17,234 nucleotides of DNA, from contig CAQTPN010000004.1 in NCBI GenBank assembly GCA_948888345.1, forward strand, positions 1 to 17,234. Reading direction: 5' to 3'. How positions within the stretch are numbered: the stretch's first letter is position 1; every line of letters begins with the position of its first letter. Made by a program: the position numbers and the translations under genes. The notes beneath the pieces were generated by a model that made no database searches, was not told the DNA's origin, and was given only the letters and a program-made list of their open reading frames with translations. This document shows, in pieces, positions 4,532 to 17,234 of this stretch. This DNA is from an uncultured bacterium. GTDB taxonomy: Bacteria; Cyanobacteriota; Vampirovibrionia; Gastranaerophilales; Gastranaerophilaceae.

Positions 4532-4579
4532 ATTTCCCCATTAAAATCTTTTTCATCACTTCAATATAATTATACTAAC

Positions 4580-4608
4580 ATAAACACCCCGGACGGGCAA
4601 ATGTTTAT
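4580..4608. repeat. Inverted repeat in the convergent GIY-YIG/cobO gap
   Basis: Perfect 7-bp arms ATAAACA and TGTTTAT flank a 15-nt centre that itself contains CCC/GGG. It lies between two convergent genes. No T-run follows on either strand, so it may be a 3' stem or weak pause site rather than a full terminator. Confidence 0.35.
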
Positions 4609-4638
4609 TTCTCCTCTTTGTTCCATTATTACAATTTC

Positions 4639-5172
4639 TTAATATTCAATACCGCGGCGTGCCATAACACCTATATCGAAATAGTGTTTAACAGGCTGCA
4701 TTTCCGTTACAAGATGGGCCATTGCAATTAATTCCTGATTGGCTCTTCTTCCTGTTAATACAATCTCTAAGCTTCTTGGCTTATTTAAAAGTGCATTTTT
4801 AACATCCTGAACTTTTATCATTCCTAAATCAATACAAACGTTGATTTCATCTAAAATAATAAGTCCGTATTTGCCGCTTGCAATAGCATTTTTAGCAAAT
4901 TCCCATCCTTTTTTGGATTCCTTATAATCATCCATATTTAAATTATGAGAATAGCAAACCCTGTCTAAACCAAACTGTACCACTTCAAGATTATCCGCAA
5001 AACGGCCGGATGAAGCTATCTCACCGTAGGTTGTACCTTTATCACCCTTTGCAAATTGAATAATTAAAACTTTCCAGCCATGACCCAGGGCTCTTAAAGC
5101 TAAACCTAAACTTGCCGTAGTTTTCCCCTTGCCGTCGCCCGTATAAATCTGAATGTATCCGTTTTCTAACAC
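4639..5172 (-). CDS. cobO: Cob(I)yrinic acid a,c-diamide adenosyltransferase (CobO/BtuR)
   Basis: This 177-residue cytosolic enzyme transfers the adenosyl group of ATP to the cobalt of corrinoids, giving adenosylcobalamin or its precursor. The P-loop GDGKGKTTAS lies at about residues 12-21, the YTGDGKGK start is typical, LIILDEINVCIDLGMI is the Walker B-like strand, and LTGRRAN and MQPVKHYFDIGVMARRGIEY form the conserved C-terminus. The length is standard. The start is GTG with a strong GGAGG four nt upstream. No other cobalamin genes are in the window, so it could serve salvage or de novo synthesis. I found no cobalamin riboswitch in its short leader. Confidence 0.92.
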   Translation of the reverse strand: MLENGYIQIYTGDGKGKTTASLGLALRALGHGWKVLIIQFAKGDKGTTYGEIASSGRFADNLEVVQFGLDRVCYSHNLNMDDYKESKKGWEFAKNAIASGKYGLIILDEINVCIDLGMIKVQDVKNALLNKPRSLEIVLTGRRANQELIAMAHLVTEMQPVKHYFDIGVMARRGIEY

Positions 5173-5234
5173 GTTTCCTCCGCTTTAAGTGAACAAGTTA
5201 AAAACAGTTTTAAATTGTTCATCTAACACTTTTA

Positions 5235-5264
5235 ATAATAAACTAAAAGACTATTTTATGGCAA
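5235..5264 (-). promoter_or_regulatory. Putative sigma70-type promoter of cobO
   Basis: On the minus strand, TTGCCA (-35, five of six matches) and TATTAT (-10, five of six) are separated by 18 bp. Transcription would start about 55 nt before the cobO GTG codon. Confidence 0.5.
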
Positions 5265-5414
5265 TCAAAAGAACAAAAAATTTATCTAACTTTAGTATTT
5301 TACAATTGTAGAAGCGTGGTTTTATCCTATTTTTAGAGTATTTAAGAAATTAATATAAATGTTACATAAATATTTCGTATACTTTCTTAATGAATACTTG
5401 CAATCCTGATATCA

Positions 5415-5423
5415 TGGTAAAAT
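5415..5423 (+). promoter_or_regulatory. Extended -10 promoter motif facing a gene-free stretch
   Basis: TGGTAAAAT fits an extended -10 (TG-n-TAAAAT). The same nine bases occur 37 nt before thrS. A TTGCAA lies upstream, but at only 14 bp spacing. There is no plus-strand gene downstream before the strong terminator at 5508-5547. Confidence 0.4.
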
Positions 5424-5547
5424 TACCCATCTTTCAATAAAAAATCAGGTTAAATTTTATTAAGCTATTTGTTGAGTATTTCAATAAAAATGACTCTGAT
5501 TTTATTAAAAAACCATGCTTTTATTTTTAAAAAAGCATGGTTTTTAT
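5424..5547 (+). ncRNA. Candidate small structured RNA (unconfirmed)
   Basis: This 120-nt stretch lies in a 396-bp gap and has no credible open reading frame. It is bounded by an extended -10 motif on the left and a perfect 15-bp terminator hairpin on the right. Between them AAAATCAG (5441-5448) can pair with CTGATTTT (5496-5503), and inside that AATTTTATT can pair with most of AATAAAAAT, giving a long hairpin before the terminator. This is inference from layout and pairing; in AT-rich DNA such pairings also arise by chance. It could instead be only the 3' region of the convergent pseudopilin operon. The rest of the gap (5265-5414) shows nothing I can name. Confidence 0.3.
5508..5545. terminator. 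Strong bidirectional intrinsic terminator after the pseudopilin operon
   Basis: Perfect 15-bp arms AAAAACCATGCTTTT and AAAAGCATGGTTTTT enclose an 8-nt loop, with T-runs on both strands. It lies about 25 nt beyond the pseudopilin stop (minus strand), so it ends the holA operon. It also works for plus-strand transcripts crossing the gap. Confidence 0.85.
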
Positions 5548-5568
5548 TAGTACTGTTTTGATAAAAAT

Positions 5569-6759
5569 TTATATAAGAGGAAGCCTGAACAGTCCGGGGT
5601 TTGCAGGTCTTGCGAGTCTTTCAATACAGAAAGCATCCACGTTTCCGCTTGCACAGTCTTCAAGTGCTTTAAGTCTGTTTGCTCCTTGTCTTTCGATTTT
5701 TTCCGCTTTATCGGTACCGTCATCCCCGCAGAATGTCATTCTCGGTACAACGTTGTCACGTCCTGATTTGCAGGCAGCTTCCTGATAACTTATATCCCTC
5801 ATAATAACTTTTGTTTCCCTGTTTTCATTGTTTCCGCCTTCAGGGATAAGGCTTCTGTATAGGTTGTAGCCGAAAGGATAGTTTGTTTCAAGCCAGCTTT
5901 CAGTACGCGGAACAGGGGTATCAACTCCGCCGACAGATACCGTATTTGTGGGACAGTATAAATTGGTAGGATATGCCGGATTCGGATTATCTACAGCTTC
6001 GCCGACCGTTGTTGCCGTAGGGTCGGATGAACCTGTGTATAAAGAGCAGCTTCCGGGCGTAATAGTGCCGTCTATATATAATCTTAAGGGGAACTGGTCC
6101 TCTCCGAGTCTGTTCGGTTCTTTATCCCCGTTTACATCAATAAATATAGGCTTAAATTGAGAAACGGTAGTTTGAGTAAGTGCCTGCTCTTCGGGTGAAG
6201 CCTTATTTATATCAAGCCATGGTCTTTCAAGGAAATAATAAGATACCATATTTGATGCCTGGAAGTTTGCAACTCCGGCATTTCCGCCTTTGCCGTTACC
6301 CACGGGAAGTTTTGTGCCGTCTCCGTTTCCGTTTTTATATTTGCAGTGAATTGTATCATTATTTGCAAGAGTGAATAAATTTCCTACTTCCATACAAAAG
6401 ATTTCATCAATTGTATCCAAATCAACCTCCTCATCCGATGATGAAGGATTAGAGGCATTATATGACTGAATTGCCGAATTTATAGCATTAACCGCCGCCT
6501 CATCGGTTACGGGCAGTTTATATGTATTCGGCTGGCATCCGTATATTCCGCTGCCGCCTTCTTCCGTACATTTGTTCATAATTGCAACGGTTGCCTGTCT
6601 TAAATTATAAAACCCTGCGTATGCAAAGGGGCCTATCATAAATTTTTTGGGCTTGATTGCCTGCACTGAAAGCCCGACAAGAATTGCAAGCGCAATTAAT
6701 GCAACGCAAAGCTCTACAAGAGTCCAGCCGTTTTTTTGCTTAAATGTTTTCTTTTTCAT
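5569..6759 (-). CDS. Large type IV pilin-like / pseudopilin protein
   Basis: The 396-residue product has a class III leader: a basic 11-residue prepeptide ending in Gly11, then WTLVELCVALIALAILVGL. Prepilin peptidase should cut between Gly11 and Trp12. The conserved Glu is at +5 (Glu16), followed by the hydrophobic assembly helix. Trp at +1 is unusual; Phe is the norm. The globular part is much longer than a typical pilin and has ten cysteines outside the helix, enough for five disulfides. Residues 208-223 read D-V-N-G-D-K-E-P-N-R-L-G-E-D-Q-F, a calcium-loop-like pattern seen in many pseudopilins. It is the last gene of the holA operon: its ATG, with AAGGGA six nt upstream, lies inside the DUF3326 gene (20-nt overlap). 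A minor pilin or adhesive-tip role is possible but not shown. Confidence 0.85.
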   Translation of the reverse strand: MKKKTFKQKNGWTLVELCVALIALAILVGLSVQAIKPKKFMIGPFAYAGFYNLRQATVAIMNKCTEEGGSGIYGCQPNTYKLPVTDEAAVNAINSAIQSYNASNPSSSDEEVDLDTIDEIFCMEVGNLFTLANNDTIHCKYKNGNGDGTKLPVGNGKGGNAGVANFQASNMVSYYFLERPWLDINKASPEEQALTQTTVSQFKPIFIDVNGDKEPNRLGEDQFPLRLYIDGTITPGSCSLYTGSSDPTATTVGEAVDNPNPAYPTNLYCPTNTVSVGGVDTPVPRTESWLETNYPFGYNLYRSLIPEGGNNENRETKVIMRDISYQEAACKSGRDNVVPRMTFCGDDGTDKAEKIERQGANRLKALEDCASGNVDAFCIERLARPANPGLFRLPLI

Positions 6760-7744
6760 ATTTGTCCCTTATATATGTTAAACAATCCTGATAACTTTGA
6801 AATTCGCTTATTCCATCTGTCTTTGTCATTATACCATTTTCTTTAAGTTTGTTGCAATCAATTGAAAGAACGGTCTTATTTTTTACGGCGCAAACTTCAA
6901 TATTATTCTTCAGTGCTGATATAACGGCCTTTGAACCCAAGGCCCCATCTGGCACTATAAGACATTTTACATCTTTATTTAAAATTCCATTTGTTTTTGA
7001 TATTTTTGGCGCAATTGAAAGCCCGTCTAAAATACAGGGAAGATATGTCGATGAGATAAATTCTGAAGCCACCTTTTTATTTACGCTTTTAAATGTTATA
7101 TCAAGCCCGGAAAATGCCGGAGAATGCGCAGCGGGCAGCATAAGTTTTTTGGTCAGATAATGAGAAATTACAGCCTCAATTCCCCCTATAGGGTCAACTC
7201 CGATTCCGTTATTATAATTCTCATCCTCGCATTCATCATTGAAAAAACATACAACAGCAAGTGCATCAATTCCTTTATTTATAAGTTTTTTAGCCGCATT
7301 ATAAAGTGTTTTTTCATTATCAATATGTCCTGTCGATATCCCGCTTTTATCCTTTATAAGAGAAACTCCGACAGGTTCATCCGTAACTTCACAGTATGGA
7401 ATTTTATACCCTTTTACAACTTCAAGAGCCTTAATTGTATTAAGATGCAGATTTAAAATTCCTTCAGGGATTGATTTATCAAAAATTACCCCAATTTTAT
7501 TAAATTCACCATTATTTGGAATAAGCCTTATATTGCCGTTAAAAAATTCATCAAAAGCATATCCTTCAACATAATACATATCCTCATTTACAGCACTTAA
7601 AATTCCTGCATTTACAACATTTGGATTAACTATAACCTTAAAGTATTTTGAAAATTCTCTTACAACATGCCCGCCATCTCCTGCGTATCCGCCAATTTCA
7701 GCACCAATACCGGTTGGAATTGATAAGGCTATTATATTTTTCAT
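6740..7744 (-). CDS. DUF3326 family protein
   Basis: The 334-residue product starts MKNIIALSIPTGIGAEIGGY, with later conserved blocks YKIPYCEVTDEPVGVSL, GVDPIGGIEAVISHYLTK, AHSPAFSG and a C-terminal CLIVPDGALG. I recognise this as DUF3326, a family known mainly from cyanobacteria and plants with no established reaction. A Gly-rich GYAGDGGH start resembles nucleotide- or substrate-binding loops, but that is a guess. I chose the ATG at 7744 because GGAGAG lies six nt upstream and the conserved family start follows at once; an in-frame upstream extension adds 19 unlike residues. It lies 13 nt after holB and its 3' end overlaps the pseudopilin start by 20 nt. Confidence 0.8.
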   Translation of the reverse strand: MKNIIALSIPTGIGAEIGGYAGDGGHVVREFSKYFKVIVNPNVVNAGILSAVNEDMYYVEGYAFDEFFNGNIRLIPNNGEFNKIGVIFDKSIPEGILNLHLNTIKALEVVKGYKIPYCEVTDEPVGVSLIKDKSGISTGHIDNEKTLYNAAKKLINKGIDALAVVCFFNDECEDENYNNGIGVDPIGGIEAVISHYLTKKLMLPAAHSPAFSGLDITFKSVNKKVASEFISSTYLPCILDGLSIAPKISKTNGILNKDVKCLIVPDGALGSKAVISALKNNIEVCAVKNKTVLSIDCNKLKENGIMTKTDGISEFQSYQDCLTYIRDKYEKENI

Positions 7745-7757
7745 AAAAATCTCTCCA

Positions 7758-8720
7758 TCATTTTTGTCGGGCAAAATCCAAAAAAAGGCTTTCCAAAACA
7801 AATTTAATGTTTATAAATGCTTTAAGCCTTCTTTTTGCCTTTAAAATAAGCTTTATATGGTATTCAAACAGTTTAACCGCTTCAATATTATTAATATTAT
7901 TCTTTAAATTTGAAAGAATAAAATCTTCTAAATCATTAAAAAAATCAACCGGATTGATTTCATCCGCCTTTAGCTTATTTTCAATTTCAATAACCGTTTC
8001 AAGAGCCTCTTCTATTGTAAAATAAGGATATTTTTTTAGCATTTTAATGTCATCAAAATAAGGTTTTGCTTCTTTTGAGGCACTCCTTGCGCCGCCTCCT
8101 GAAAGTTTAAATACATTTGAGCGGGAAACAATTGTTGAGATTAAATCCTCCCTATTTTTTGTTAAAAATATAAATGTCGTGCGATCGGGAGGCTCTTCAA
8201 CAGATTTTAAAAGAGAATTTGAAGCATCTGCCTGAAACATTTTCATATTTAAAGGAAGAGGCACCCAGTTTTCCTCCGGAAAATCATACCCCAATGACTT
8301 AAATTTGCAGCATGAAGCTTCTTCAGCTGCGTTTTTTTGCTTAATTTTTGCATCACAAAATATAAAAACTCTGTGATAATCACAGGTTTCACTTAATGAA
8401 GATGTGATTTTTTTTGCCTGTGCAATTGAAATAACGGTTTTTGAAGGGTCATCCTTAAAATTTATCGGGGATACAATATTAACGCTCGGGTGTTTTATGT
8501 CCCTTATCCAGTTGCAGTTTATACATTTGCAGTTTGAATCCTTTTTATCACCTTTGCAGTTTAAAATTCTTGCAAGCTCCATTGAAAACATATACTCTGA
8601 AATTATATCAAGCCCTTCAAATACAATGGATTGCGGGAATTTATCAATATTATTTTGAATAAGTGTTTCAAAATAATCAGATATAAAAGGAAAATTTGAT
8701 TTTAAAATATCATTAATCAT
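7758..8720 (-). CDS. holB: DNA polymerase III delta' subunit, clamp loader
   Basis: This 320-residue protein is the delta' wrench of the replicative clamp loader, which places the sliding clamp on primed DNA. The N-terminal AAA+ domain lacks a working Walker A (the strand-loop is FEGLDIISEYM), as expected for delta'. Four cysteines at residues 55, 64, 66 and 69 form the zinc module. NSLLKSVEEPPDRTTFIFLT at about 168-187 is the family hallmark, and the SRC motif appears as IVSRS. An insertion of about 36 residues (about 125-161) sits between the FIFCDA strand and this hallmark. The start ATG overlaps the holA stop by four nt (ATGA), so translation is coupled. The C-terminal collar helices are weakly conserved but of normal length. 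Confidence 0.87.
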   Translation of the reverse strand: MINDILKSNFPFISDYFETLIQNNIDKFPQSIVFEGLDIISEYMFSMELARILNCKGDKKDSNCKCINCNWIRDIKHPSVNIVSPINFKDDPSKTVISIAQAKKITSSLSETCDYHRVFIFCDAKIKQKNAAEEASCCKFKSLGYDFPEENWVPLPLNMKMFQADASNSLLKSVEEPPDRTTFIFLTKNREDLISTIVSRSNVFKLSGGGARSASKEAKPYFDDIKMLKKYPYFTIEEALETVIEIENKLKADEINPVDFFNDLEDFILSNLKNNINNIEAVKLFEYHIKLILKAKRRLKAFINIKFVLESLFLDFARQK

Positions 8721-9724
8721 AAAGCTCCGTTCCTTTTATCTTGAAAAAAAGCACATTCAAAGGCAAGAAGGGCCTCTTTTTCCCCGCTTTTTATTTCAAA
8801 TTCAGCTTCAATTAAACCCTGTTTTATTTGAATAAGTTCATCCACACTTACCGTACGCAGTTTTTCAAGACTTTTTTTCACGGCAAAATCATTCTGCCCG
8901 GTTTTTCTTGCTATATCAAAGCTTGACATTGATTTTGAATAAACTTTGGTTATTAAAAGTTTTGAAAAAGAGCTTTGTAAAAAGGCTAAAATTTCAAGGT
9001 AGTGAGATTTATTCAGCATATTTGAAATTTCAAAAAGGGCTTTATCAAATTTTTTTTCTAAGATTAAATCATTTATTAAGAAAATATTCTGTCCGCCGCC
9101 CCCTGTTTTTTCTGCAATATCTTGTGTTATAAGGGTATCCGGATAAATTGTAAGCTTTATTTTATCAACAGCATTATTTAAATCGCGAAGCGACGGGCCG
9201 ACCTGCCTCATTATTGTTGTTAAAACATTATTATCGGCCTTTAGCCCTGCTTTTTGGACCATACCCTTTAAAACGGGGAGAATTTTATATTCTTCATAAG
9301 CCTTAAAGCTTGAAAACTCTTTAACAGTACCCGTTTTTTGAACGGCTTTAAATATTTTTTTTCTTGAATCGGGTTTTTTTCTGTCTCCCTTATCAATAGG
9401 ACAGGTTAAAATTATATGAACCCTGTCTGACACTAAATCAAACGCTTTTGTTACTTCATCCGTCTGCTTGTCATCAAGCTTTATCTTTTTTGCTGTCTCT
9501 AAAAAATATTTATCTGCCCTTATTTTATATACAACATCCCCAAACATCATAGGCTGGGTACAAAGTGCATCTATCAAAACTTTAAAATCAGGATTATCAA
9601 GGCATCTGTAATTCAGGGGCGAAATTTCATTCCCGTCACGAACTTTCAGCACCTCATCTTTAATGGTTTTTATTTCGTTTTCAAGCGTGAAATCCTCATC
9701 GCCCCAGAACAAATATACAGGCAT
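8717..9724 (-). CDS. holA: DNA polymerase III delta subunit, clamp loader
   Basis: This 335-residue protein is the delta subunit that opens the sliding clamp. The start YLFWGDEDFTLENEI matches the family's first strand and helix. GPSLRDLNNAVDKIKL (about residue 175) is the conserved central block, and QNIFLINDLILEKKFDKAL opens the C-terminal collar. The last 60 residues contain the usual two helices ending in EKEALLAFE. It is the first gene of the four-gene minus-strand operon and overlaps holB by four nt. The ribosome site before the ATG is weak: AAGG lies about 15 nt away. An upstream TTTATA-17-TAAAAT pair on the minus strand is a possible promoter but a poor match. Confidence 0.88.
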   Translation of the reverse strand: MPVYLFWGDEDFTLENEIKTIKDEVLKVRDGNEISPLNYRCLDNPDFKVLIDALCTQPMMFGDVVYKIRADKYFLETAKKIKLDDKQTDEVTKAFDLVSDRVHIILTCPIDKGDRKKPDSRKKIFKAVQKTGTVKEFSSFKAYEEYKILPVLKGMVQKAGLKADNNVLTTIMRQVGPSLRDLNNAVDKIKLTIYPDTLITQDIAEKTGGGGQNIFLINDLILEKKFDKALFEISNMLNKSHYLEILAFLQSSFSKLLITKVYSKSMSSFDIARKTGQNDFAVKKSLEKLRTVSVDELIQIKQGLIEAEFEIKSGEKEALLAFECAFFQDKRNGAL

Positions 9725-9820
9725 ATTCTAAATAAAACCTTTTAAAATCTCTTAAAACAATTTTAGCTTGAAAATTCAATTTTATAAAGAAAATTTTATT
9801 TAAAAATAGCAAAATAATAT

Positions 9821-9854
9821 TTTTTTGTGTTTTCTATGGACACCACACAAGAAA
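9821..9854 (+). promoter_or_regulatory. Leader hairpin touching the ribosome site of the SFKG protein
   Basis: TTTTTTGTGT (9821-9830) can pair with ACACAAGAAA (9845-9854) in RNA, with one G-U pair and a 14-nt loop. The right arm overlaps the start of the AAAGGA ribosome site. The effect depends on where transcription starts, which I cannot fix; a TAATAT at 9815 would start inside the left arm. Confidence 0.25.
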
Positions 9855-9863
9855 GGAATTAAG

Positions 9864-10544
9864 ATGCAGATAAATTCAATAAGACCGTATTCTCAAAATA
9901 CGAAAATTCCGTCATTTAAGGGCGCAAACCTTGTACAGGTTCCAAAAAAGGCATTTCAAAGCTCTGAAAAAGCTCTGATAACTTTTATGGAAGCTATCAC
10001 ATCTGCCGATGGTTCCAGACTGAAAGAAAATATATTTACAAGACTTTCAAATTCTTTTAATCCTGCCAAAGATAAGAAATTTGCCATTTATCAGGAAAAT
10101 CCTTCATACGTTTTAGTATCAGATGTTTTAAGAAGGTATGGCCTTAAAAGCTGTTCTGCTGAATGGTTTTCAAAAAATACAGGTATTCCTGTAAATGGCG
10201 AAAAACATCCGGATTTTCATTCTTTTCATGTCTTAACCGGCAAAGAAAAAGATGCCGCGTTAAATTTATTTTCTAAAAAGAATATCGATTCAATCTATGA
10301 GCAGGCAGCAGAAGAAATAAATAATTCAAAAGGTATTTCCGATGAACAGGTAAGAAAGATAAACAAAAGTTTCATTAATGGTGATTATGAAGCCGCGGAG
10401 AGGCAGGCAGAGTTTTTATTAAATGCAAAAGCAGCACAAATATTAGACAGCAGGATGGATGCCTCATTAAAAAATACACATTTTAAACATTTTAGAATAG
10501 GAAGCCTTGATGAGGTTAAAAATATAATAAATGAACTTGTATAA
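9864..10544 (+). CDS. Orphan protein with SFKG N-terminal tail
   Basis: I do not recognise the 226-residue product. The N-terminus MQINSIRPYSQNTKIPSFKG is polar and probably disordered, without a signal peptide or membrane helix. Similar tails ending in (S/N)FKG are, as I recall, common on orphan proteins of gut Melainabacteria; that is memory, not a search. The rest looks soluble and mostly helical, with a histidine-rich patch (HPDFHSFHVLTG, about residues 114-125) and a C-terminal helix-rich half. I chose the ATG at 9864 because GAAAGGA lies 7 nt upstream; an in-frame extension to 9825 starts at a TTG without a ribosome site. It stands alone between the holA operon and a terminator. Confidence 0.75.
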   Translation: MQINSIRPYSQNTKIPSFKGANLVQVPKKAFQSSEKALITFMEAITSADGSRLKENIFTRLSNSFNPAKDKKFAIYQENPSYVLVSDVLRRYGLKSCSAEWFSKNTGIPVNGEKHPDFHSFHVLTGKEKDAALNLFSKKNIDSIYEQAAEEINNSKGISDEQVRKINKSFINGDYEAAERQAEFLLNAKAAQILDSRMDASLKNTHFKHFRIGSLDEVKNIINELV

Positions 10545-10607
10545 CCTTAAATAAGGATTCATTTTTAATCAAAATTTATATCTAACTTAATTTATAATAT
10601 ACTAAAA

Positions 10608-10640
10608 GCCGGCAGTTAAATTTCTGCCGGCCTTCTTTTA
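10608..10640. terminator. Bidirectional terminator between the SFKG gene and the glucokinase gene
   Basis: Perfect 8-bp GC-rich arms GCCGGCAG and CTGCCGGC with an 8-nt loop are followed by CTTCTTTTA on the plus strand and by TTTTAGT on the minus strand. It sits between two convergent genes and can serve both. Confidence 0.8.
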
Positions 10641-10650
10641 TGGTTTAAAT

Positions 10651-11601
10651 TTAACTTTCAATTAAAAGGCTTGCGCCGATAACGCCTGCCGTATTTCCAA
10701 GCTCCGCATGAACAATTTCAACACTGGATGCTTGAATAGGCATGGCTCTTTTTTGAACCACTTCTCTTATGGGATTAAAAAGAATATCTCCGGCATCCGC
10801 TACACCGCCGCCTATAATTACTTTTTCAGGATTTAAAAGGTTAATAACAGATGTTAAACCAAGGCCGATTGTTTCACCTATTTTTCTGTAAATTTGCTTT
10901 GCAACAACATCCCCCTGCAATGCAGCCTGAGCCACAATATACGGGCTTAATTCTTCTGTTGCAAGTTCTTTAAATTTAGAAGATTTTCCGCCCATAATGT
11001 ATTCTTTGGCCATTTGAACAATAGCAGGGCCTGAAGCGTAAGCCTCAAAACATGCAAAATCACCGCATCCGCAAAGAGGGCCTTCACCCATAGACATTTT
11101 AATGTGGCCTATTTCACCTGCCGCATTTTTGGCTCCGCGGGCAAGCTTACCGTTTATAACAAGGCCTGAACCGATTCCTGTACCAACGGTAATACATACA
11201 AGATTCTGACAGCCCTTTCCCGCACCGTATTTTAATTCGCCGAGAGTTGCAACACGTACATCATTATCAAGTTTTGTTACAATGCCGAATTCTTTTTGCA
11301 TAATATCAGCTACAGGAACATCAACCCAGCCCGGCATGTTTGGCAAAAGCCTTACAACTCCTGCCTGATAATCAATCTGGCCCGGGAAGCCGAAGCCTAT
11401 AGCTTCAATTGAATTTTTATCCTGATTGGTTTCTTTCATTAAATCTGAAATAGCGATTTTAATATTTCCCAAAGTATGCTCATAACCCATATCTGCACGG
11501 GTGGGCGTTGTGTTTGAATAGACAATTTTACCGTCCATATCAACAAGTGCAATTTTTATGTTTGTTCCGCCAATATCCACACCAATTCTGTACTTTTTCA
11601 T
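10651..11601 (-). CDS. glcK: ROK-family glucokinase
   Basis: This 316-residue cytosolic sugar kinase most likely phosphorylates glucose to glucose 6-phosphate with ATP. The phosphate-1 loop is VDIGGTNIK (residues 8-16). The catalytic aspartate is Asp114 in KLDNDVRVATLGE. TVGTGIGSGLVINGKLARG is the phosphate-2 region. The ROK signature with its zinc site is visible as His166 (EIGH) and Cys177, Cys179 and Cys184 in LCGCGDFACFEAYASG. There is no N-terminal helix-turn-helix, so it is a kinase, not a ROK repressor. GGGAG lies four nt before the ATG. Specificity among hexoses (glucose, fructose, N-acetylmannosamine) cannot be fixed from sequence, though the overall pattern fits glucokinase. It is monocistronic, ending at a GC-rich terminator. 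Confidence 0.88.
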   Translation of the reverse strand: MKKYRIGVDIGGTNIKIALVDMDGKIVYSNTTPTRADMGYEHTLGNIKIAISDLMKETNQDKNSIEAIGFGFPGQIDYQAGVVRLLPNMPGWVDVPVADIMQKEFGIVTKLDNDVRVATLGELKYGAGKGCQNLVCITVGTGIGSGLVINGKLARGAKNAAGEIGHIKMSMGEGPLCGCGDFACFEAYASGPAIVQMAKEYIMGGKSSKFKELATEELSPYIVAQAALQGDVVAKQIYRKIGETIGLGLTSVINLLNPEKVIIGGGVADAGDILFNPIREVVQKRAMPIQASSVEIVHAELGNTAGVIGASLLIES

Positions 11602-11642
11602 AAATCTCCCTCTTTAAAATTATATCTGATTATGTTAAGCAG

Positions 11643-11651
11643 ATTATACCA
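11643..11651 (-). promoter_or_regulatory. Extended -10 promoter of the glucokinase gene
   Basis: On the minus strand TGGTATAAT is a perfect extended -10, about 42 nt before the start codon. No clear -35 is present, which extended -10 promoters can do without. Confidence 0.5.
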
Positions 11652-11779
11652 TTAAAAGCATTGTATAGGAAGTTTTAACCTTATGTAAACAAATGTAACA
11701 AAAGATTGCCTTTTTGAAATTATATACCTTTTAAATACTTTATATATATGTAACGAGTTTATTGAAAGTTTAGAGCAAA

Positions 11780-11950
11780 ATGGCAGTTCGTCCAACTGAT
11801 AGCATAGATAAAAAATTAGCTCAGATGTATGCATCCAAGGTAACAGTAAATCTTGAAGCTAAATCAACACTTTCCCCGAATGAATTCTGGAATTCAATGG
11901 AATTAATAGCTTTGAACAATAAAGCCGTCATGAATTTCAGATGTAAATAA
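11780..11950 (+). CDS. Putative 56-residue microprotein
   Basis: An intact 57-codon frame starts at ATG with GAG four nt upstream and encodes a polar, charged 56-residue product. It starts MAVRPTDSIDKKLAQMYASK and ends NFRCK. There is no signal peptide or membrane helix; the middle (SPNEFWNSMELIALNN) could form an amphipathic helix. I do not recognise it. Its balanced amino-acid make-up differs from the AT-rich flanks, and a good terminator follows 40 nt after the stop. Both favour a real gene. It stands alone between the divergent glucokinase gene and a convergent membrane-protein gene. The remaining DNA between 11652 and 11779 is AT-rich with TATATATA runs and no clear promoter. Confidence 0.6.
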   Translation: MAVRPTDSIDKKLAQMYASKVTVNLEAKSTLSPNEFWNSMELIALNNKAVMNFRCK

Positions 11951-11988
11951 AAAATTAATCAAAGATGGATTATGGAGTAGAAAAAATT

Positions 11989-12024
11989 CCGCCACCGCTT
12001 TTTTAAAGCCGGCGGCATTTTTTT
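11989..12024. terminator. Bidirectional terminator between the microprotein and membrane-protein genes
   Basis: CCGCC and GCTTT in the left arm pair with AAAGC and GGCGG in the right arm, with a small internal bulge. A seven-T run follows on the plus strand and AATTTTTT on the minus strand. It fits the ends of both convergent genes. Confidence 0.75.
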
Positions 12025-12041
12025 ATGCTGATTGCCTGATT

Positions 12042-13094
12042 TTATTTAATGAGTAATTTTCTTATTTTTTCTTCGATTTTTCTACAGTTTTTAGAATAAT
12101 AAAGGCCCGAAAAAATAATAAAAAGCCCGAATAAAACAAGCATAAGCGGAAAAATAGGAGAATCCTTAAAAATAACATACGCAAGGTGTCCTATATAAGC
12201 AAAAACACCAATTGCACCCCAAACGATGAAAATCTTTCTTTGCAAAATAATGCTTATTATCATATAAAAGAAGCTGAATGCAGCAATAACAAAATAAGCA
12301 AATTCATTATCTATTTTAAATTGCAGAAAAATTGAAGGTATTACACACCATAAAAGCGTTGAGCCAAAAATATAGAACCATCCTGAAAAATCATCTTTTG
12401 TTTTTCTATCAAATTTCAAAGCAATTCCAAGCATAAATATTGCAAAGAAAAATGTTGCAAAATTGCGCATTCCCCAGCTGGGCTCTATTAAAGCACCTTG
12501 TGCAAAAACAGGGACAATATCCATTGAAAGATACCAGAGAGCATAGCATACAGGAAGGGTTAAAAACGGGAATTTTCTGAATTTTAAAAAGATAAGACCC
12601 GCAAGAATTGTTGCTATCTCCATTAGTATCCATCCGCTTCTTATCCATTTATGAAAATCAGAATACCTGCTTAAATCATTCGGCATTATGCCGACCAGAC
12701 TTTCAAATGCCCAAACGCCAAGCGGTACAACACTTACAGCACAAGTATACAATAATCCGCCCGGTATTTTTTTATCTTTTTTCCAAAGAAGATTTCCTAA
12801 AAGTGTAAAGATTAAAAAATATACAATACAAACAGCCAAAAGCCCGCCATGTCCGAATGATTCCCAGATGTTCCCGAGATACCAGCCCATGGTGCTTATT
12901 ATAATTAATGCTCCAAAATAATATAAAAAATTTTCAAATGTAAATTTCTTACGGTTCTCTTTATCTATAGCATCATCTTTTAATTTTTTTTCTGCATTAA
13001 TCCCGTTTAAAAAATTAATAAGAACATCAAAAGTGTCTGCAGAAATAATTTTCTTATCAACAGCAAGAGATAAATCTTTTTCATCAAATTTCAT
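12042..13094 (-). CDS. Polytopic membrane protein, DUF2157-like
   Basis: The 350-residue product has a soluble N-terminus of about 50 residues (LSLAVDKKIISADTFDVLINFL, then a charged linker). About ten hydrophobic helices follow, such as FLYYFGALIIISTMGWYLG, GGLLAVCIVYFLIFTLLG and LMLVLFGLFIIFSGLYY, and a basic tail ends EEKIRKLLIK. The N-terminal 'vdkkIIs...' helix pair followed by many helices resembles DUF2157-type proteins, whose role is unknown; this match is tentative. No catalytic motif is visible. The ATG has AAGGG about 8 nt upstream. It is monocistronic between its own promoter and the shared GC-rich terminator, divergent from the ADP-ribosyltransferase-like gene. Confidence 0.8.
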   Translation of the reverse strand: MKFDEKDLSLAVDKKIISADTFDVLINFLNGINAEKKLKDDAIDKENRKKFTFENFLYYFGALIIISTMGWYLGNIWESFGHGGLLAVCIVYFLIFTLLGNLLWKKDKKIPGGLLYTCAVSVVPLGVWAFESLVGIMPNDLSRYSDFHKWIRSGWILMEIATILAGLIFLKFRKFPFLTLPVCYALWYLSMDIVPVFAQGALIEPSWGMRNFATFFFAIFMLGIALKFDRKTKDDFSGWFYIFGSTLLWCVIPSIFLQFKIDNEFAYFVIAAFSFFYMIISIILQRKIFIVWGAIGVFAYIGHLAYVIFKDSPIFPLMLVLFGLFIIFSGLYYSKNCRKIEEKIRKLLIK

Positions 13095-13120
13095 AATAAA
13101 AACCCTTAATTTTTTGTTTT

Positions 13121-13150
13121 ATTATAGTGATTTTAGCTTATTTACGGCAA
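13121..13150 (-). promoter_or_regulatory. Putative sigma70-type promoter of the membrane-protein gene
   Basis: On the minus strand, TTGCCG (-35) and a perfect TATAAT (-10) are 18 bp apart. Transcription would start about 20 nt before the ATG. Confidence 0.5.
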
Positions 13151-13239
13151 GCTTTGTTAAGCTAAATTTACACACCCTAAAACTTTTTAGCAATTTTTAA
13201 AACATTTTTTACTTTTTGAAATATATAAAAGGAGATAAA

Positions 13240-13929
13240 ATGAGCATAAATTTAACAAAATTTACACAGGCTGCAGGTGCAAGCTTACAAAATATTTCTC
13301 AAAAAGCAGCACCGCAGGTGCCCCAAAGTGCAAAATTTAATACAGGGATTTTACCCGCAGATACGGTAGATTTTTCTAAAGCGGCGAAAAAGGCTCAATT
13401 TCCTTTTACCGATAAAACCACACAGGTAGCAGAGCACCACAATATAAACGGTCAAAATAGCAATATAAGATGTGCTCTGAAACATCTTGAACAGGGTAAA
13501 GAGCTGAACAGAGGAGACAAATGGGCACTTGAAACAGTAGAAGAGCTGGATGCTGATTTTGCAAAGCTCCCGCCATTGGAAGACAATTTTACATTTTACA
13601 GAGGAAGAACAAAACACCCTGTTATAGAACGTTTTAACGAAGATTTTAATATAATTGAAGCTGCAAAAGAGGGTGAAATTATAGTCCCGGATAGAGCATA
13701 CAGCTACGGCGCATTTAATAAAAGCCTTGCAGAGCACTGGTCCGGCGGAATGGGCGATACCATGATGATTGAAATCCGCACCCCGAAAGGTGCCAAGGTT
13801 TCAAGAAATTTAGAGCACGGCGGCGAAGTTGTATTTCCAAGAGGAGCTGAATACAGGCTTTTATCAAAGGAAAAAAGCAATGATAACTGTTTAAATGTCG
13901 TATTAGAATACATTTTGCCTGAAAAATAG
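13240..13929 (+). CDS. Putative ADP-ribosyltransferase-fold protein
   Basis: The 229-residue product has a polar, probably disordered first 65 residues containing ADTVDFSKAAKK, then a domain resembling R-S-E type ADP-ribosyltransferases, which move ADP-ribose from NAD to a target. FTFYRGR supplies the strand-1 arginine (Arg121). PDRAYSYGAFNKSLAEHW (150-167) sits where the STS strand and following helix occur, with Ser155. MMIEIRTPKGAKVS and then EHGGEVVFPRGAEYRLLS carry the likely catalytic Glu196 before the family's V-x-F-P-R-G strand. The usual first Glu/Gln of E-x-E is Gly194 here, which is unusual. No signal peptide or partner immunity gene is seen. I chose the ATG at 13240 because a strong AAAGGAGAT precedes it; a TTG 24 nt upstream is in frame but has no such site. 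A weak AT hairpin with T-run follows the stop. The fold call is from motifs only. Confidence 0.65.
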   Translation: MSINLTKFTQAAGASLQNISQKAAPQVPQSAKFNTGILPADTVDFSKAAKKAQFPFTDKTTQVAEHHNINGQNSNIRCALKHLEQGKELNRGDKWALETVEELDADFAKLPPLEDNFTFYRGRTKHPVIERFNEDFNIIEAAKEGEIIVPDRAYSYGAFNKSLAEHWSGGMGDTMMIEIRTPKGAKVSRNLEHGGEVVFPRGAEYRLLSKEKSNDNCLNVVLEYILPEK

Positions 13930-13980
13930 TGAAAAATTGAACTTAAAAATTTTCTTATTTTTTATTGCAGCTTGTTTTTG

Positions 13981-13989
13981 TGGTAAAAT
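13981..13989 (+). promoter_or_regulatory. Extended -10 promoter of thrS
   Basis: TGGTAAAAT lies 36 nt before the thrS ATG and fits an extended -10. The leader would be short, leaving no room for a T-box or similar control element. Confidence 0.5.
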
Positions 13990-14025
13990 TCTACTTAGAA
14001 CTTTACTTATAAAGGAAGAATTGTT

Positions 14026-15807
14026 ATGGAAAATAAGGAAAATTTGGCTGAATTGCACACATTAAGGCATTCCTGCTCTCATATTATGGCGCAGGCTGTT
14101 CAAAATTTATACCCGAATGCAAAGCTTGCAATAGGCCCTGCAATTGATAACGGCTTTTATTATGATTTTGATATAGAAGGCACAACCTTAAAGGAAGAGG
14201 ATTTTGAGGCGATTGAAAAAGAAATGAAACGCCTTGTTGAAATGGATTTAAGGTTTGAAAAATATGTTATTCCTGATGTTCAGGCTCAAATTGATGAATT
14301 TAAAAATAAAGGCGAAATTTATAAAGCAGAACTTCTTGAAGAGCACAGGAATGACAATCCCACCCTTTATTTAACGAAAGATAAAGACGGAAATATACTT
14401 TTTGACGACCTTTGTTCAGGACCGCATCTTGAAAATACCAGAAAAATCAAGGCTTTTAAGCTATTATCTGTTGCGGGTGCCTACTGGAGAGGTTCTGAAA
14501 AAAATAAAATGCTGCAAAGAATTTATGCAACCGCTTTTCCTTCAAAAGATGAGCTTAAAGCCTATCTTGATATGCTGGAAGAAGCTAAAAAGCGCGACCA
14601 CAGAAAACTCGGCAAGGAATTGGATTTATTTTCCGTTCATGATGAAATCGGTGCAGGGCTTGTATTATGGCATCCTAATTTAGCCGTAGTGCGCGAAAAC
14701 ATTGAAAATTACTGGAGAGAAGAACACAGAAAAAGAGGGTATGTAATTGTTAACACTCCGCAAATTGCAAAAAGCAAGCTGTGGGAGGTTTCAGGACATA
14801 TTGACCATTACAGAGAAAATATGTTTTTTGTACAAAAAGAGGATGAAAACGATGACCAGTTCATCATTAAACCGATGAACTGCCCGTTCCATATTTTAAT
14901 ATATGCTTCTCAAAGACGCTCTTACCGCGATTTGCCGATTAGGATGGCTGAACTCGGCACGGTTTATCGTAAAGAAAAATCCGGCGCACTTGGCGGATTA
15001 ACAAGGGTTCAAGGGTTTACACAGGATGATGCACACATTTTCTGCACCCCCGAGCAAATTGTAAATGAAATTAATGAAATTATTGATTTTATTCAGGATG
15101 CAATGGCCATCTTTAATATGACATTTGAAGTTGAGCTTTCCACCCGTCCCGAGAGCTATGTAGGTGATTTAGAGCACTGGAATATGGCGGAAGCAGGGCT
15201 TAAAGAGGCTCTTGATAAACGCGGCATGAAATATGATATAAATGAAGGCGATGGTGCATTTTACGGGCCGAAAATTGATTTCAAATTCAAAGATGCAATC
15301 GGCAGAACCTGGCAGTGTGCTACAATTCAGCTGGATTTCAACTTACCTATAAGATTTGATTTAAAATATCAAGATAAAGACGGCGAATTAAAAACCCCGA
15401 TAATGCTTCACAGAGTAGTTTTCGGGTCTATGGAAAGATTCCATGGCATTTTAATTGAACACTACGCAGGCGCATTTCCAACCTGGCTTAACCCAAAACA
15501 GGCTGCCATTGTACCTATTGCAGACAGACATCTTGAAGCTTGTGAAGAATTGTTTACAAAACTTAAAAATAAAGGTATCAGAGTTGAACTTGATGACCGT
15601 TCCGAATCTATGAATCATAAAATCAGAGATTGTCTGCAAAATAAAAAAATCCCTTATGTGCTGGTTGTGGGTGATAAAGAAATTGCGGACGGCACAGTTG
15701 CGGTAAGGGCAAGAGGAAGAGGGCCTATTGGCACGTTTAATTTTGATGAATTTACCCAAAAACTGCTTGAGGAGATTAATTCCAAGGGTAAGACCATTGT
15801 AGAATAA
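14026..15807 (+). CDS. thrS: Threonyl-tRNA synthetase
   Basis: This 593-residue class II synthetase charges tRNA-Thr. The editing domain opens with HTLRHSCSHI (His15 and His19 of HxxxH) and later has Cys130 and His134 in DLCSGPHLENT. The catalytic core carries the zinc ligand Cys286 (MNCPFH), motif 2 around VYRKEKSGALGGLTRVQGF, His337 and a motif 3 region HRVVFGSMERFHGILIEHYA. The C-terminal anticodon-binding domain covers about residues 490-593. The N-terminal TGS domain of about 60 residues found in the E. coli enzyme is absent; the upstream DNA is non-coding and AAAGGAAG lies close before the ATG, so this is the natural start. Shortened forms of this kind occur in cyanobacteria and some other groups. 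It has its own promoter and a hairpin terminator. Confidence 0.96.
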   Translation: MENKENLAELHTLRHSCSHIMAQAVQNLYPNAKLAIGPAIDNGFYYDFDIEGTTLKEEDFEAIEKEMKRLVEMDLRFEKYVIPDVQAQIDEFKNKGEIYKAELLEEHRNDNPTLYLTKDKDGNILFDDLCSGPHLENTRKIKAFKLLSVAGAYWRGSEKNKMLQRIYATAFPSKDELKAYLDMLEEAKKRDHRKLGKELDLFSVHDEIGAGLVLWHPNLAVVRENIENYWREEHRKRGYVIVNTPQIAKSKLWEVSGHIDHYRENMFFVQKEDENDDQFIIKPMNCPFHILIYASQRRSYRDLPIRMAELGTVYRKEKSGALGGLTRVQGFTQDDAHIFCTPEQIVNEINEIIDFIQDAMAIFNMTFEVELSTRPESYVGDLEHWNMAEAGLKEALDKRGMKYDINEGDGAFYGPKIDFKFKDAIGRTWQCATIQLDFNLPIRFDLKYQDKDGELKTPIMLHRVVFGSMERFHGILIEHYAGAFPTWLNPKQAAIVPIADRHLEACEELFTKLKNKGIRVELDDRSESMNHKIRDCLQNKKIPYVLVVGDKEIADGTVAVRARGRGPIGTFNFDEFTQKLLEEINSKGKTIVE

Positions 15808-15815
15808 TTGATTTT

Positions 15816-15866
15816 TATAACGCTTATGAAAGCCTTGCCTGTAAAACGTTATAGGGCAAGGCTTTT
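15816..15866 (+). terminator. thrS terminator hairpin with a competing stem
   Basis: Perfect 11-bp arms AAAGCCTTGCC (15829-15839) and GGCAAGGCTTT (15855-15865) follow the thrS stop, with weak T-tracts after. The loop contains CGTTATA (15847-15853), exactly complementary to TATAACG (15816-15822) just before the hairpin. The RNA could form a pseudoknot, or a rival stem that breaks the terminator. Confidence 0.7.
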
Positions 15867-15928
15867 CAGTTTTTAAATATGTTTTTTGGGGTTTTTTAAA
15901 ATCAAATAGGCTAAAATACCTGCAGAGC

Positions 15929-15957
15929 TTGACTTTTAAATGTTAGAAAACTATATA
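15929..15957 (+). promoter_or_regulatory. Near-consensus sigma70 promoter opposing the 62-residue gene
   Basis: TTGACT and TATATA are separated by exactly 17 bp, the best promoter match in the window. No reading frame of note follows on the plus strand for over 300 nt. The transcript would run antisense through the 62-residue gene and could reach the XRE regulator. Confidence 0.5.
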
Positions 15958-16028
15958 AAAGCTTCTATCATAAAGATTTTAAGACATTTTTTGTCGGGAT
16001 ATTTTAAAAAAGCAGGATGTTTTGGCTG

Positions 16029-16217
16029 CTAATTTGCCATAATATCAGATATATCCTTCATTTTAGCGTTTAAAATTTTTATAAGCGGTATTAGTTCATA
16101 ATTGTTTTCTTTGGCCCAAAGGGTTATTGTTCTTGTTACAGGCTCGATTTCAAGGAATTTATCCGTGATATTTGCCAGTTTATTTGCAATTTTATTATAC
16201 ATTTCTTCATCAACCAT
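16029..16217 (-). CDS. Small unknown protein, 62 residues
   Basis: I do not recognise this protein. It starts MVDEEMYNKIANKLANITDK, is charged, lacks a signal peptide or membrane helix, and looks all-helical (residues 5-22 and 43-60), with TRTITLWAKENNYEL between. AAGGAG lies six nt before the ATG, a strong ribosome site that supports a real gene. It is divergent from the XRE regulator, with 75 bp between the two starts. A TATAAT on the minus strand in that gap (around 16234) may be its -10. The arrangement could reflect joint regulation, but nothing shows a toxin or antitoxin role. Confidence 0.7.
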   Translation of the reverse strand: MVDEEMYNKIANKLANITDKFLEIEPVTRTITLWAKENNYELIPLIKILNAKMKDISDIMAN

Positions 16218-16292
16218 ATTTTTCTCCTTTTAAATTATATAGGTGTGTCTTTGCGTACGTTTATAAAATAACTTTAGCATTAAAATAAAAGA

Positions 16293-16511
16293 ATGACAAG
16301 CAGTACGGAAAAAATTAAAGAAAAACTTAGAGCTAAAATAAAAGAATGCAGGAAAAAATTATCCCTGACTCAGTTGGAATTAGGAATTCAAGCCGATGTT
16401 ACGGAAGATTACGTACATTCTCTGGAAGCCGGAAGAAGAACACCCAGTCTTGATGTTTTATGCAGATTAGCTGATGCTCTTAAAGTTGAACCTTATGAAT
16501 TATTAAAATAG
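16293..16511 (+). CDS. XRE/Cro-family helix-turn-helix regulator
   Basis: This 72-residue single-domain DNA-binding protein has the five-helix Cro/C1 fold. KIKECRKKLSLTQLELGIQADVTEDYVHSLEAG spans helices 1-4, with LTQLELGIQADV and TEDYVHSLE as the recognition pair. RRTPSLDVLCRLADALKVEP is the typical end. Such proteins bind operators as dimers; here there is no sensor domain. No convincing ribosome site precedes the ATG, which is unusual beside the strong sites of its neighbours and may mean leaderless translation or a regulated long leader. It lies next to the divergent 62-residue gene and just before a large inverted-repeat element. Confidence 0.9.
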   Translation: MTSSTEKIKEKLRAKIKECRKKLSLTQLELGIQADVTEDYVHSLEAGRRTPSLDVLCRLADALKVEPYELLK

Positions 16512-16527
16512 GCCATTTTAAGTAAGG

Positions 16528-16719
16528 AAGCTTGAATGTAAAAATTCATCGGCGGTTTGGCAACACTCATAAAATTTCTAAGCTCACCTTTTATTGTTCG
16601 CAAACTCACCTGCGTTTTAAGCTAATAGAAACGCAGGTTCAAACATGCTCACTTTATATGTTCGCTAAGAAATTTTTATTCGCTTATGCTTAACGCCATA
16701 AATTTTTACATTCAAGCTT
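16528..16719. repeat. 192-bp nested inverted-repeat element
   Basis: The ends are perfect 19-bp inverted repeats: AAGCTTGAATGTAAAAATT at 16528-16546 and its complement at 16701-16719. The complementarity continues inward in degraded form (CATAAAATTTCTAAGC near 16568 against GCTAAGAAATTTTTAT near 16664). At the centre is a perfect 9-bp hairpin, CCTGCGTTT (16609-16617) with AAACGCAGG (16629-16637). Two direct copies of GCTCAC..TTAT..GTTCGC (16582-16601 and 16647-16665) lie inside the arms. No reading frame is carried. It looks like a small non-autonomous mobile element or a long folded RNA/DNA. I see no clear target-site duplication. Confidence 0.7.
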
Positions 16720-16720
16720 T

Positions 16721-16752
16721 TAATATTTTAATCGTAAACAATTAAAATATTA
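16721..16752. repeat. AT-only 12-bp hairpin
   Basis: TAATATTTTAAT and ATTAAAATATTA are perfect inverted arms with an 8-nt loop, directly next to the 192-bp element. They may be part of the same element or a weak transcription stop. Confidence 0.5.
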
Positions 16753-16754
16753 TA

Positions 16755-16766
16755 TTTTCGCGAAAA
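16755..16766. repeat. Perfect 12-bp palindrome TTTTCGCGAAAA
   Basis: A perfect palindrome with a CGCG centre stands out in this AT-rich stretch. It could be a protein-binding site or part of a repeat unit; no function can be assigned from sequence. Confidence 0.4.
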
Positions 16767-16797
16767 GAACTTTTTTAATAAAAAAGGACCAAAAACT

Positions 16798-16838
16798 CTG
16801 GATTGCCGCGGTCGTTTCACTCCCTCGCAATGACAAAG
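16798..16838. repeat. Dispersed palindromic repeat, left copy
   Basis: CTGGATTGC at the left and CGCAATGACAAAG at the right bound a 41-bp unit. It resembles the widely dispersed 'GTCATTGC...GCAATCCAG' repeats known from many bacterial genomes. It is in inverted orientation to the copy at 16939-16972. Degraded pieces with TTGCAATAACAAA lie between. Confidence 0.6.
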
Positions 16839-16938
16839 ATTTGAATGAGTAGTTACAAGTTGTTAAGTTCTCTTGCAATAACAAAAAAGCCTTCTTGTAA
16901 AAAATAAATTTCCTCTTTATTACAGCAGACAAACCGCG

Positions 16939-16972
16939 CTTTGTCATTGCAAGCGTTAGCGAAGCAATCCAG
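16939..16972. repeat. Dispersed palindromic repeat, right copy
   Basis: CTTTGTCATTGC at the left and GAAGCAATCCAG at the right form the inverse of the unit at 16798-16838. The 100 bp between the copies has no gene that I can support; frames seen there are translations of the repeats. A degraded remnant may continue at about 17012-17036. Confidence 0.6.
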
Positions 16973-17063
16973 AAGAAATGCTGAAAGGCAGTGAATTTGC
17001 CGCACTCCTGCCAGTCGCTTGCAAAGACGAAAGCAGAATTTTATCATTGTAAAACTGTAATAA

Positions 17064-17094
17064 AAAACCGCTTAAGTATTCCTTAAGCGGTTTT
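17064..17094. terminator. Intrinsic terminator of the HU gene
   Basis: Perfect 13-bp arms AAAACCGCTTAAG and CTTAAGCGGTTTT enclose a 5-nt loop. On the minus strand six T residues follow, so it ends the HU gene about 20 nt after its stop. Confidence 0.85.
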
Positions 17095-17115
17095 AAAATG
17101 TTTATTTTCAAAAAA

Positions 17116-17234
17116 CTATTTCTTATTAACAAGTTCTTTGAATTTTTTACCAGCTGAAAATGCAGGAACAGTTTTAGCGGCAATTTTAATTTCTTTACCT
17201 GTTTGAGGATTGCGGCCTGTTCTTGCAGCACGTT
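17116..17234 (-). CDS. hup: HU-family DNA-binding protein (partial, 5' end cut by window edge)
   Basis: Only the last 38-39 residues are inside the window. They read [20 protein letters not shown] and then [18 protein letters not shown] before the stop. [12 protein letters not shown] is the conserved DNA-binding arm of HU/IHF proteins, and [14 protein letters not shown] is the C-terminal helix. HU bends and compacts the nucleoid as a dimer. HU or IHF subunit cannot be told apart fully here, but the tail fits HU. A strong hairpin terminator follows. A longer frame that overlaps it on the same strand is out of phase and is not a gene. Confidence 0.93.

Follow-up and report, generated by a model that had tools for sequence, protein, structure and literature searches.

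What kind of enzyme is encoded at positions 13240-13929 (+) of a 17,234-nucleotide stretch of DNA from an uncultured bacterium of the family Gastranaerophilaceae (order Gastranaerophilales; assembly GCA_948888345.1, contig CAQTPN010000004.1, positions 1 to 17,234; hereafter the window), and to which of the known classes does its active site belong? The original prediction, made from the letters of the window, had read the product as an ADP-ribosyltransferase (ART)-like protein of the Arg-Ser-Glu (R-S-E) class with an altered residue two before the catalytic glutamate. Our analysis supports a real, conserved ART, in which the hybrid triad of a few toxins, with Tyr in the place of Ser (R-Y-E), is the norm across an entire clade of stand-alone genes, and we favour, at a probability of roughly 0.72, the reading that the gene encodes a single-domain mono-ADP-ribosyltransferase of this R-Y-E family. 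Published R-Y-E ARTs are few, and we found no account of an ADP-ribosyltransferase in Gastranaerophilales or Melainabacteria in the open-licence PMC literature.

An ADP-ribosyltransferase fold from residue 51 onwards

The open reading frame (ORF) runs from an ATG at 13240 to a TAG at 13927-13929 and yields a product of 229 residues, a coding sequence that is backed by 119 homologues, the closest of which (P0002-P0012) are 56-73% identical. AGGAG at 13230-13234 (+), five bases upstream of the ATG, is a probable ribosome-binding site, and with it this ATG is a better start than the alternative TTG at 13216, which would add eight residues. In the AlphaFold model, the ten-residue means of the predicted local distance difference test (pLDDT) are 90 for residues 51-60 and 93-98 thereafter, and the PDB matches listed for the model by Foldseek and VIA-align are ARTs. 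On this modelling evidence, residues 51-229 (13390-13926, +) are an ART domain, with a predicted split beta-sheet core and NAD cleft, in agreement with the ART-like protein originally proposed. Among solved structures, the fold comes closest to C3-, ExoS- and Vip2-like enzymes, mostly of the R-S-E class. The residues ahead of the domain (1-50; 13240-13389, +) are modelled with low confidence, are probably disordered and lack a hydrophobic stretch resembling a signal peptide; a disordered tail had been proposed, and by pLDDT the disordered part is instead these N-terminal residues, about 50 in number.

At the level of sequence, PF03496 matches 28 of 47 aligned family members at E ≤ 0.1, the window protein not being among them. 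A sequence-only search of solved structures returned no match, and a search of the same kind of target with the family profile returned 12 weak rows, the third of which was C3larvin (E 0.25) and the first two unrelated proteins. Thirteen NCBIfam families each matched one member only (best E 0.0013), while no PADLOC model of anti-phage defence genes matched the window protein at E ≤ 1, the matches elsewhere being weak and confined to at most two members (best E 0.0053). The ratio of nonsynonymous to synonymous substitution rates (dN/dS) was 0.19-0.32 in ten pairs among five relatives, as expected under purifying selection.

A tyrosine in the class-defining serine column

Conservation in the window family was counted over the window protein and its 119 homologues, that is, 120 proteins listed of 213. 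Arg121 (13600-13602, +), the motif I arginine, which aligns with the Arg of ordinary ARTs, is kept in 119 of the 120, and Glu196 (13825-13827) is invariant, together with Asp151, Tyr156, Ser188, Gly195 and Lys210; the catalytic-type Arg and Glu of the original prediction are therefore retained among the homologues. His193 is found in 118 proteins, His66, Arg77, Arg189, Asn190 and Glu192 in 117 each and Asn73 in 116, with His66, Asn73 and Arg77 lying in the conserved start of the first helix (residues 66-77; 13435-13470, +).

The R-S-E class is marked by the motif Ar-x-S-T-S, where Ar is an aromatic residue, and a serine-containing strand had been counted among the blocks that placed the window protein in this class. 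As a comparison set we used ordinary PF03496 proteins of the same bacterial order, of which 27 usable domains were obtained out of 33 loci (L106, L127 and L128 were dropped as uncut, and L109, L122 and L124 as partial or in the wrong frame; L118-L120 are near-identical). In six out of six profile alignments between the family and these ordinary ARTs, the first Ser of the motif is paired with Tyr156, its aromatic residue with Tyr154 and the helix Ala with Ala164; all six are ungapped over residues 151-164 and set Arg on Arg and Glu on Glu, and a MAFFT alignment of 85 proteins gave an identical register. The column so defined holds Ser in 26 of the 27 ordinary ARTs and Ala in the remaining one. 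As such, the alignments point to Tyr156, and not Ser155, as the equivalent of the class-defining Ser within residues 154-167 (YSYGAFNKSLAEHW; 13699-13740, +), a stretch in which Tyr156 is followed by Ala158 (Ala or Gly at +2 in 104 of 120), Ala164 and Trp167. The latter occupies position +11 after Tyr156, where 103 of the 120 proteins have an aromatic residue (Trp 98, Phe 5). The Arg and the Glu of the proposed R-S-E assignment thus stand, and membership of the class is nonetheless unsupported, because its Ser column holds an invariant Tyr.

The turn that leads to the catalytic glutamate (residues 189-196, RNLEHGGE; 13804-13827, +) is altered as well. Gly194, two before Glu196, had been singled out in the original prediction, rightly so in view of its presence in 109 of 120 proteins (otherwise S 3, E 2, D 2, C 2, N 1, R 1), whereas the same position in the 27 ordinary ARTs is Glu in 21, Gln in 5 and Thr in 1. 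The median number of residues separating the Pro of a PKG motif from the catalytic Glu is 14 in the window family (range 14-18), 15 in the sister family described below (10-22) and 22 in ordinary ARTs (18-29). When set against the consensus of the ADP-ribosylating toxin turn-turn (ARTT) loop, given as X-X-aromatic-X-X-E/Q-X-E in an extract of PMC7827354, the window sequence R-N-L-E-H-G-G-E has Leu191 at the aromatic place and Gly194 at the E/Q place, so that neither specificity place carries the expected residue. The protein hence shares with PF03496 enzymes the fold, Arg121, Glu196 and the first-helix Asn, and differs from them by three linked departures, namely Tyr for Ser, the shortened turn and no Glu or Gln at −2.

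A clade of stand-alone R-Y-E genes

A second profile search brought up a sister family (119 new proteins among 120 listed of 128) with the same triad: Arg is kept in 118 of 119, the Tyr156 column is Tyr in 115, Phe in 3 and Cys in 1, and the Glu196 column is Glu in 114, with three gaps, one D and one N. An aromatic residue stands at +11 in 116 of these proteins, and the residue at +2 after the Tyr is Thr in 105. Trees were inferred from the window protein, samples of 24 rows from the family and 22 from its sister, 13 chosen deep rows and 25 ordinary ARTs, with rows having Tyr or Phe in the Ser column labelled R-Y-E. When the motif columns 152-168 were left out, the R-Y-E rows still fell on one side of a single branch (55 versus 30 rows; Shimodaira-Hasegawa-like approximate likelihood ratio test, SH-aLRT, 90), which corresponds to one change in the tree, while shuffled labels required 25 changes on average and in 0 of 500 shuffles as few. 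With the motif columns included, the R-Y-E clade had an SH-aLRT of 96, and one sister row (P0239) was placed inside the window family. The position of several deep rows is unsure because of their long branches.

The distribution of the family is uneven. Scanning the contigs of 84,980 species with the single protein as query gave no match, and the same scan with a profile gave 20 loci, several of them titled Gastranaerophilales or Melainabacteria and one 'Clostridia', with a weak Cryosericum match (L020, E 4e-4) among them. Of 286 genomes of the order, 105 carry 1-3 matches each to the family profile, and an ordinary PF03496 match is present in 115. We regard the gene as accessory and patchy in its occurrence, and not as part of the core.

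A subgroup with the motif C-A-Y (for example P0104 and L016; 14-17 of the 120 proteins) has Cys154, R-I-V in the place of R-G-R and Asn at +11; its pocket may have changed further, or this branch may be decaying.

An apparently hybrid site among known enzymes

Two RNA-modifying toxins with an R-Y-E triad are described in the papers listed for the ART triads. For RhsP2 (R1490-Y1524-E1576), changes of the Arg or the Tyr impair NAD+ binding, and basic residues beside the active site are used for RNA (PMC12340436, in extract). The second, RhsF-CT of Chromobacterium violaceum (R1403-Y1456-E1497), is presented in an extract of PMC13324451, whose authors regarded the R-Y-E variation as previously reported only in RhsP2 and suggested a link between this triad and RNA. 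The same paper aligns RhsF Ser1445 with the Ser of ScARP, and RhsF Tyr1456 with Tyr67 of the pertussis-like EcPltA, of which R9, Y67 and E118 are named as catalytic. Since Tyr1456 lies 11 residues after Ser1445, the Tyr of RhsF occupies the +11 place of the window protein and not the place of Tyr156, and that of EcPltA, going by this description, does likewise. The Tyr-Glu distance of RhsP2 (52) equals the Ser-Glu distance of RhsF, and therefore the RhsP2 Tyr is probably in the Ser place, like Tyr156, so that the two published triads differ in arrangement. By alignment, the window protein hence resembles RhsP2 in having an R-Y-E triad with Tyr in the Ser place, whereas RhsP2 is set apart, by its description, as the C-terminus of an Rhs toxin with an RNA target and basic residues at its site.

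The other point of comparison is the H-Y-E class of diphtheria toxin and the poly(ADP-ribose) polymerases (PARPs). In diphtheria toxin, Tyr54 and Tyr65 are 11 residues apart. The pocket of PARP1 is formed by His862, Tyr896, Ala898, Ser904, Tyr907 and Glu988 according to an extract of PMC13241013, with a spacing of +8 and +11 from Tyr896 as in the window family, and an extract of PMC7827354 describes H-Y-E enzymes as lacking a Glu/Gln ARTT loop, a further likeness to the window protein beside the Tyr and the aromatic residue at +11. In contrast to this class, the window protein has Arg121 and not His in motif I, and its fold matches mostly enzymes of the R-S-E class. The sequence comparison thus describes an apparently hybrid site, with the Arg of the cholera-toxin class and the Tyr of the diphtheria-toxin/PARP class.

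Here we propose that NAD+ would sit in the ART cleft, where Arg121 would contact its phosphates, and that the nicotinamide would be held between the rings of Tyr156 and Trp167, in the manner of the paired tyrosines in PARP- and diphtheria-toxin-like enzymes. Glu196 would then stabilise the oxocarbenium ion, upon which ADP-ribose could be transferred to an acceptor. A different target, as originally suggested, is conjectural. The acceptor is probably selected otherwise than in ARTs that modify Arg or Asn, because the turn is about eight residues shorter and has no Glu/Gln or aromatic residue at the specificity places; the conserved S-R-N-x-E-H-x-G-E turn might instead form another acceptor site, a claim in which we place much less trust than in the enzyme itself. 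Given that neither an export signal nor an immunity gene was seen, modifying the target is probably harmless to the own cell at rest, and the target could be a molecule of a host, competitor or phage, or a regulated molecule of the own cell. Our fullest account, offered as tentative, is that in a lineage of ARTs of gut Melainabacteria a cholera-style Arg/Glu site acquired, by a single ancestral change, the Tyr/aromatic pair of the PARP and diphtheria-toxin style, and that the turn was shortened and rebuilt as S-R-N-x-E-H-x-G-E, which would have created an enzyme with a new acceptor in the own cell, a phage or a host, with no immunity partner and sometimes beside a gene for uptake of an NAD+ precursor.

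Alternative readings

The alternative that survives best, though we consider it rather unlikely, is an ART directed at RNA or another nucleic acid, like the two R-Y-E Rhs enzymes, which modify RNA and whose triad the RhsF authors associate with it in the extract cited above. A turn without the published specificity residues would suit this reading, as would the basic-leaning domains of the sister family, of which 81 of 112 are net positive with a median isoelectric point (pI) of 8.3. However, the ART domain of the window protein is acidic (net charge −6, pI 5.6), which speaks mildly against it, and a net positive charge is found in 57 of the 118 domains of the family, with a median net charge of 0, in contrast to the basic residues that RhsP2 is described as using. 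The different arrangement of the RhsP2 and RhsF triads also counts against this reading.

It is unlikely that the protein is secreted as an antibacterial toxin and belongs to a polymorphic-toxin system. ADP-ribosylhydrolases have been proposed as immunity proteins of polymorphic toxins (PMC3482391, in extract), and a Listeria ART-hydrolase pair is present in the PDB (8za7, by its title). The patchy occurrence of the family, its variable N-terminal extensions (listed proteins are 126-522 residues long) and the existence in the same order of some ordinary ARTs that look alike and have ADP-ribosylhydrolase neighbours are in favour of such a role. We compared the best-scoring 81 family-profile places and 106 ordinary ART places with 29 ADP-ribosylhydrolase places. 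A hydrolase gene lies within 5 kb of 13 of the 106 ordinary ART places, in convergent orientation in all 13, but of none of the 81 family-profile places, ADP-ribosylhydrolases being the one kind of immunity gene that this search covered. In the 17-kb window itself, no ADP-ribosylhydrolase was found among the listed ORFs by reading, no model having been run on all ORFs. In a crude test, consisting of a 12-residue hydrophobicity threshold only, a signal-like start was seen in 1 of 120 family proteins, and there with an upstream-extended start, versus 7 of 20 complete ordinary ARTs. These results agree with the original description of a gene that stands alone and has neither a delivery nor an immunity neighbour.

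An ordinary R-S-E enzyme that modifies a protein side chain, in which Ser155 would be the Ser of the STS motif and only the −2 residue would have changed, is improbable. The closest solved folds, which are those of R-S-E enzymes, and the PF03496 matches of family members would fit it, and Ser155, in YSYGAF, is present in 98 of 120 proteins. Yet the same position is Ala in 14 family proteins (G 4, P 3, T 1 in the others) and Ala in 106 of 119 sister proteins, of which only 8 have Ser; Ser155 misses the Ser column by one residue in each of the six profile alignments, and as the strand neighbour of Tyr156 it would be expected to face the other side. A catalytically dead fold used for binding, to which the departures from the consensus (in the Ser column, at −2 and in the turn) and the incomplete conservation of the +11 aromatic could be taken to point, is very improbable given the retention of Arg and Glu in the family and its sister, the purifying selection and the working R-Y-E triad described for RhsP2.

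Several observations weigh against the R-Y-E reading or parts of it. Searched by itself, the window protein matches no Pfam model at E ≤ 10. The +11 aromatic is missing in 17 of 120 proteins (N 14, C 2, H 1), position 154 is Cys in 17 of 120, and an aromatic at +11 is present in 8 of the 27 ordinary ARTs, so that this feature alone is not diagnostic. A different register, in which Tyr156 would be the aromatic residue before an Ala/Gly in the Ser place, is disfavoured by the alignments, as it needs a two-residue gap. Among 95 profile-matched rows that reach the Ser column (many genes being counted twice from overlapping loci), 91 are aromatic, and four divergent rows have Ser (L101-L103) or Cys (L090), from which it follows that a profile match is not always R-Y-E. 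Lastly, the four transporter neighbours described below may stem from one event, because three of these ARTs (L088, L092 and L099) have alike motifs.

Genomic setting

The ART gene is followed by thrS (14026-15807), named from its sequence and matched in every one of the 286 genomes sampled from the order, whose product, threonyl-tRNA synthetase, is at most 83% identical to any in that sample. Four relatives (L147, L149, L150 and L151) have glk and thrS less than 500 bases apart, whereas the window has, between the same two genes, an extra segment with the ART gene and a gene for a DUF2157-like membrane protein (12042-13094, −; PF09925, E 5.2e-4, below the curated cut-off). The ART gene is therefore an accessory piece, gained here or lost there. 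It was not found in 12 thrS regions from close genomes, some of which are cut by contig ends; the four relatives just named are those among the 12 in which glk is seen beside thrS. The DUF2157-like gene is no regular partner, since tblastn at E 1e-4 revealed no relative of it in 151 loci. An operon with thrS was likewise not adopted; the four relatives share GGTAAAAT before thrS by eye, and the BLAST matches of 13-14 bases (E 0.09-0.5) are weak.

Between glk and the extra segment lies a 56-residue ORF (11780-11950, +), shorter than the 80 residues required for the ORF list, and DNA like it occurs at the same place in the four relatives (about 71% over 235-264 bases). Further upstream, between holA and glk, an ORF at 9864-10544 (+) has an N-terminal PSFKG motif; the aligned ends of holA and glk are 13-18 bases apart in the four relatives. 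Across 439 ORFs, 22 matches to the PSFKG-motif pattern fell within the first 80 residues, compared with 5 in shuffled sequence, and the rest of the ORFs, twice as long, gave 27.

No neighbour is common to the family: in 20 loci (the window and 19 related), 14 clusters among the neighbours listed recur in 2-4 loci and none in more than four. A nicotinamide mononucleotide transporter gene (PF04973) is found 2.2 kb from the ART in L003 (10753-11478, E 1.4e-36) and 1.2 kb from it in L014 (5933-6634, E 8.4e-38). Such genes are present in 214 of 286 genomes of the order, and when the 56 family-profile places in genomes with a transporter among the matches listed (150 transporter places) were considered, four had one at 49-72 bases in convergent orientation (G271:C25, G109:C11, G191:C30 and G211:C6), against a chance expectation within 5 kb of about 0.3 places by our own estimate for 2 Mb genomes. 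By reading, no neighbour of this type is present among the ORFs of the window. Macrodomain genes, present in 47 of 286 genomes, were rejected as partners, as 1 of 81 family-profile places lies within 5 kb of any of the 53 macrodomain places considered (G032, 3.2 kb).

With regard to the ordinary ARTs of the order, the 13 convergent PF03496-PF03747 pairs, with ART and hydrolase 0.2-1.5 kb apart, are probable toxin-immunity pairs (G157:C30, G251:C18, G118:C2, G192:C4, G096:C1, G245:C8, G113:C7, G077:C4, G221:C23, G278:C13, G200:C6, G117:C4 and G234:C110). Ordinary ART matches can also be clustered, with five matches as listed within about 8.5 kb in G239:C129 and in G237:C20; the 1.7 Mb genome G239 has eight such matches and G237 seven.

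The regions ahead of the ART domain vary within the family. Many of P0062-P0094 have long extensions, with total lengths of 386-522 residues, and L056 has KPEV-type repeats in its extension. The window protein carries D-T-V-D-F-S at residues 41-46, and 83 of the 120 family proteins match the pattern D-T-V-x-F-S somewhere in their first 150 residues. This motif was rejected as a general sorting signal, as the 439 non-ART ORFs have no clear N-terminal excess: 7 hits in the first 80 residues, 11 further in and 5 after shuffling, or 0.20, 0.14 and 0.14 per 1000 residues, respectively.

Other explanations of origin and expression were tried and set aside. For a phage origin, IMG/VR yielded 53 pattern matches, none confirmed as a relative, and a search with one homologue matched ARTs of Streptomyces phages three times (E 5e-3 to 4e-2). 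A GC content of 0.389 over 13301-14000 lies inside the window range of 0.283-0.447 and is not telling as to foreign composition, and a promoter scan near the ART gene found 3 sites versus 2.9 in shuffles.

Implications

ART classes are defined by their triads, and a whole clade in which Tyr takes the place of the class-defining Ser allows the role of this Tyr to be tested. Such a clade could show how a cholera-type site becomes a PARP-type one, and whether the choice of target follows the turn. For the organisms themselves, the present analysis suggests that members of the gut order Gastranaerophilales have such an enzyme activity.
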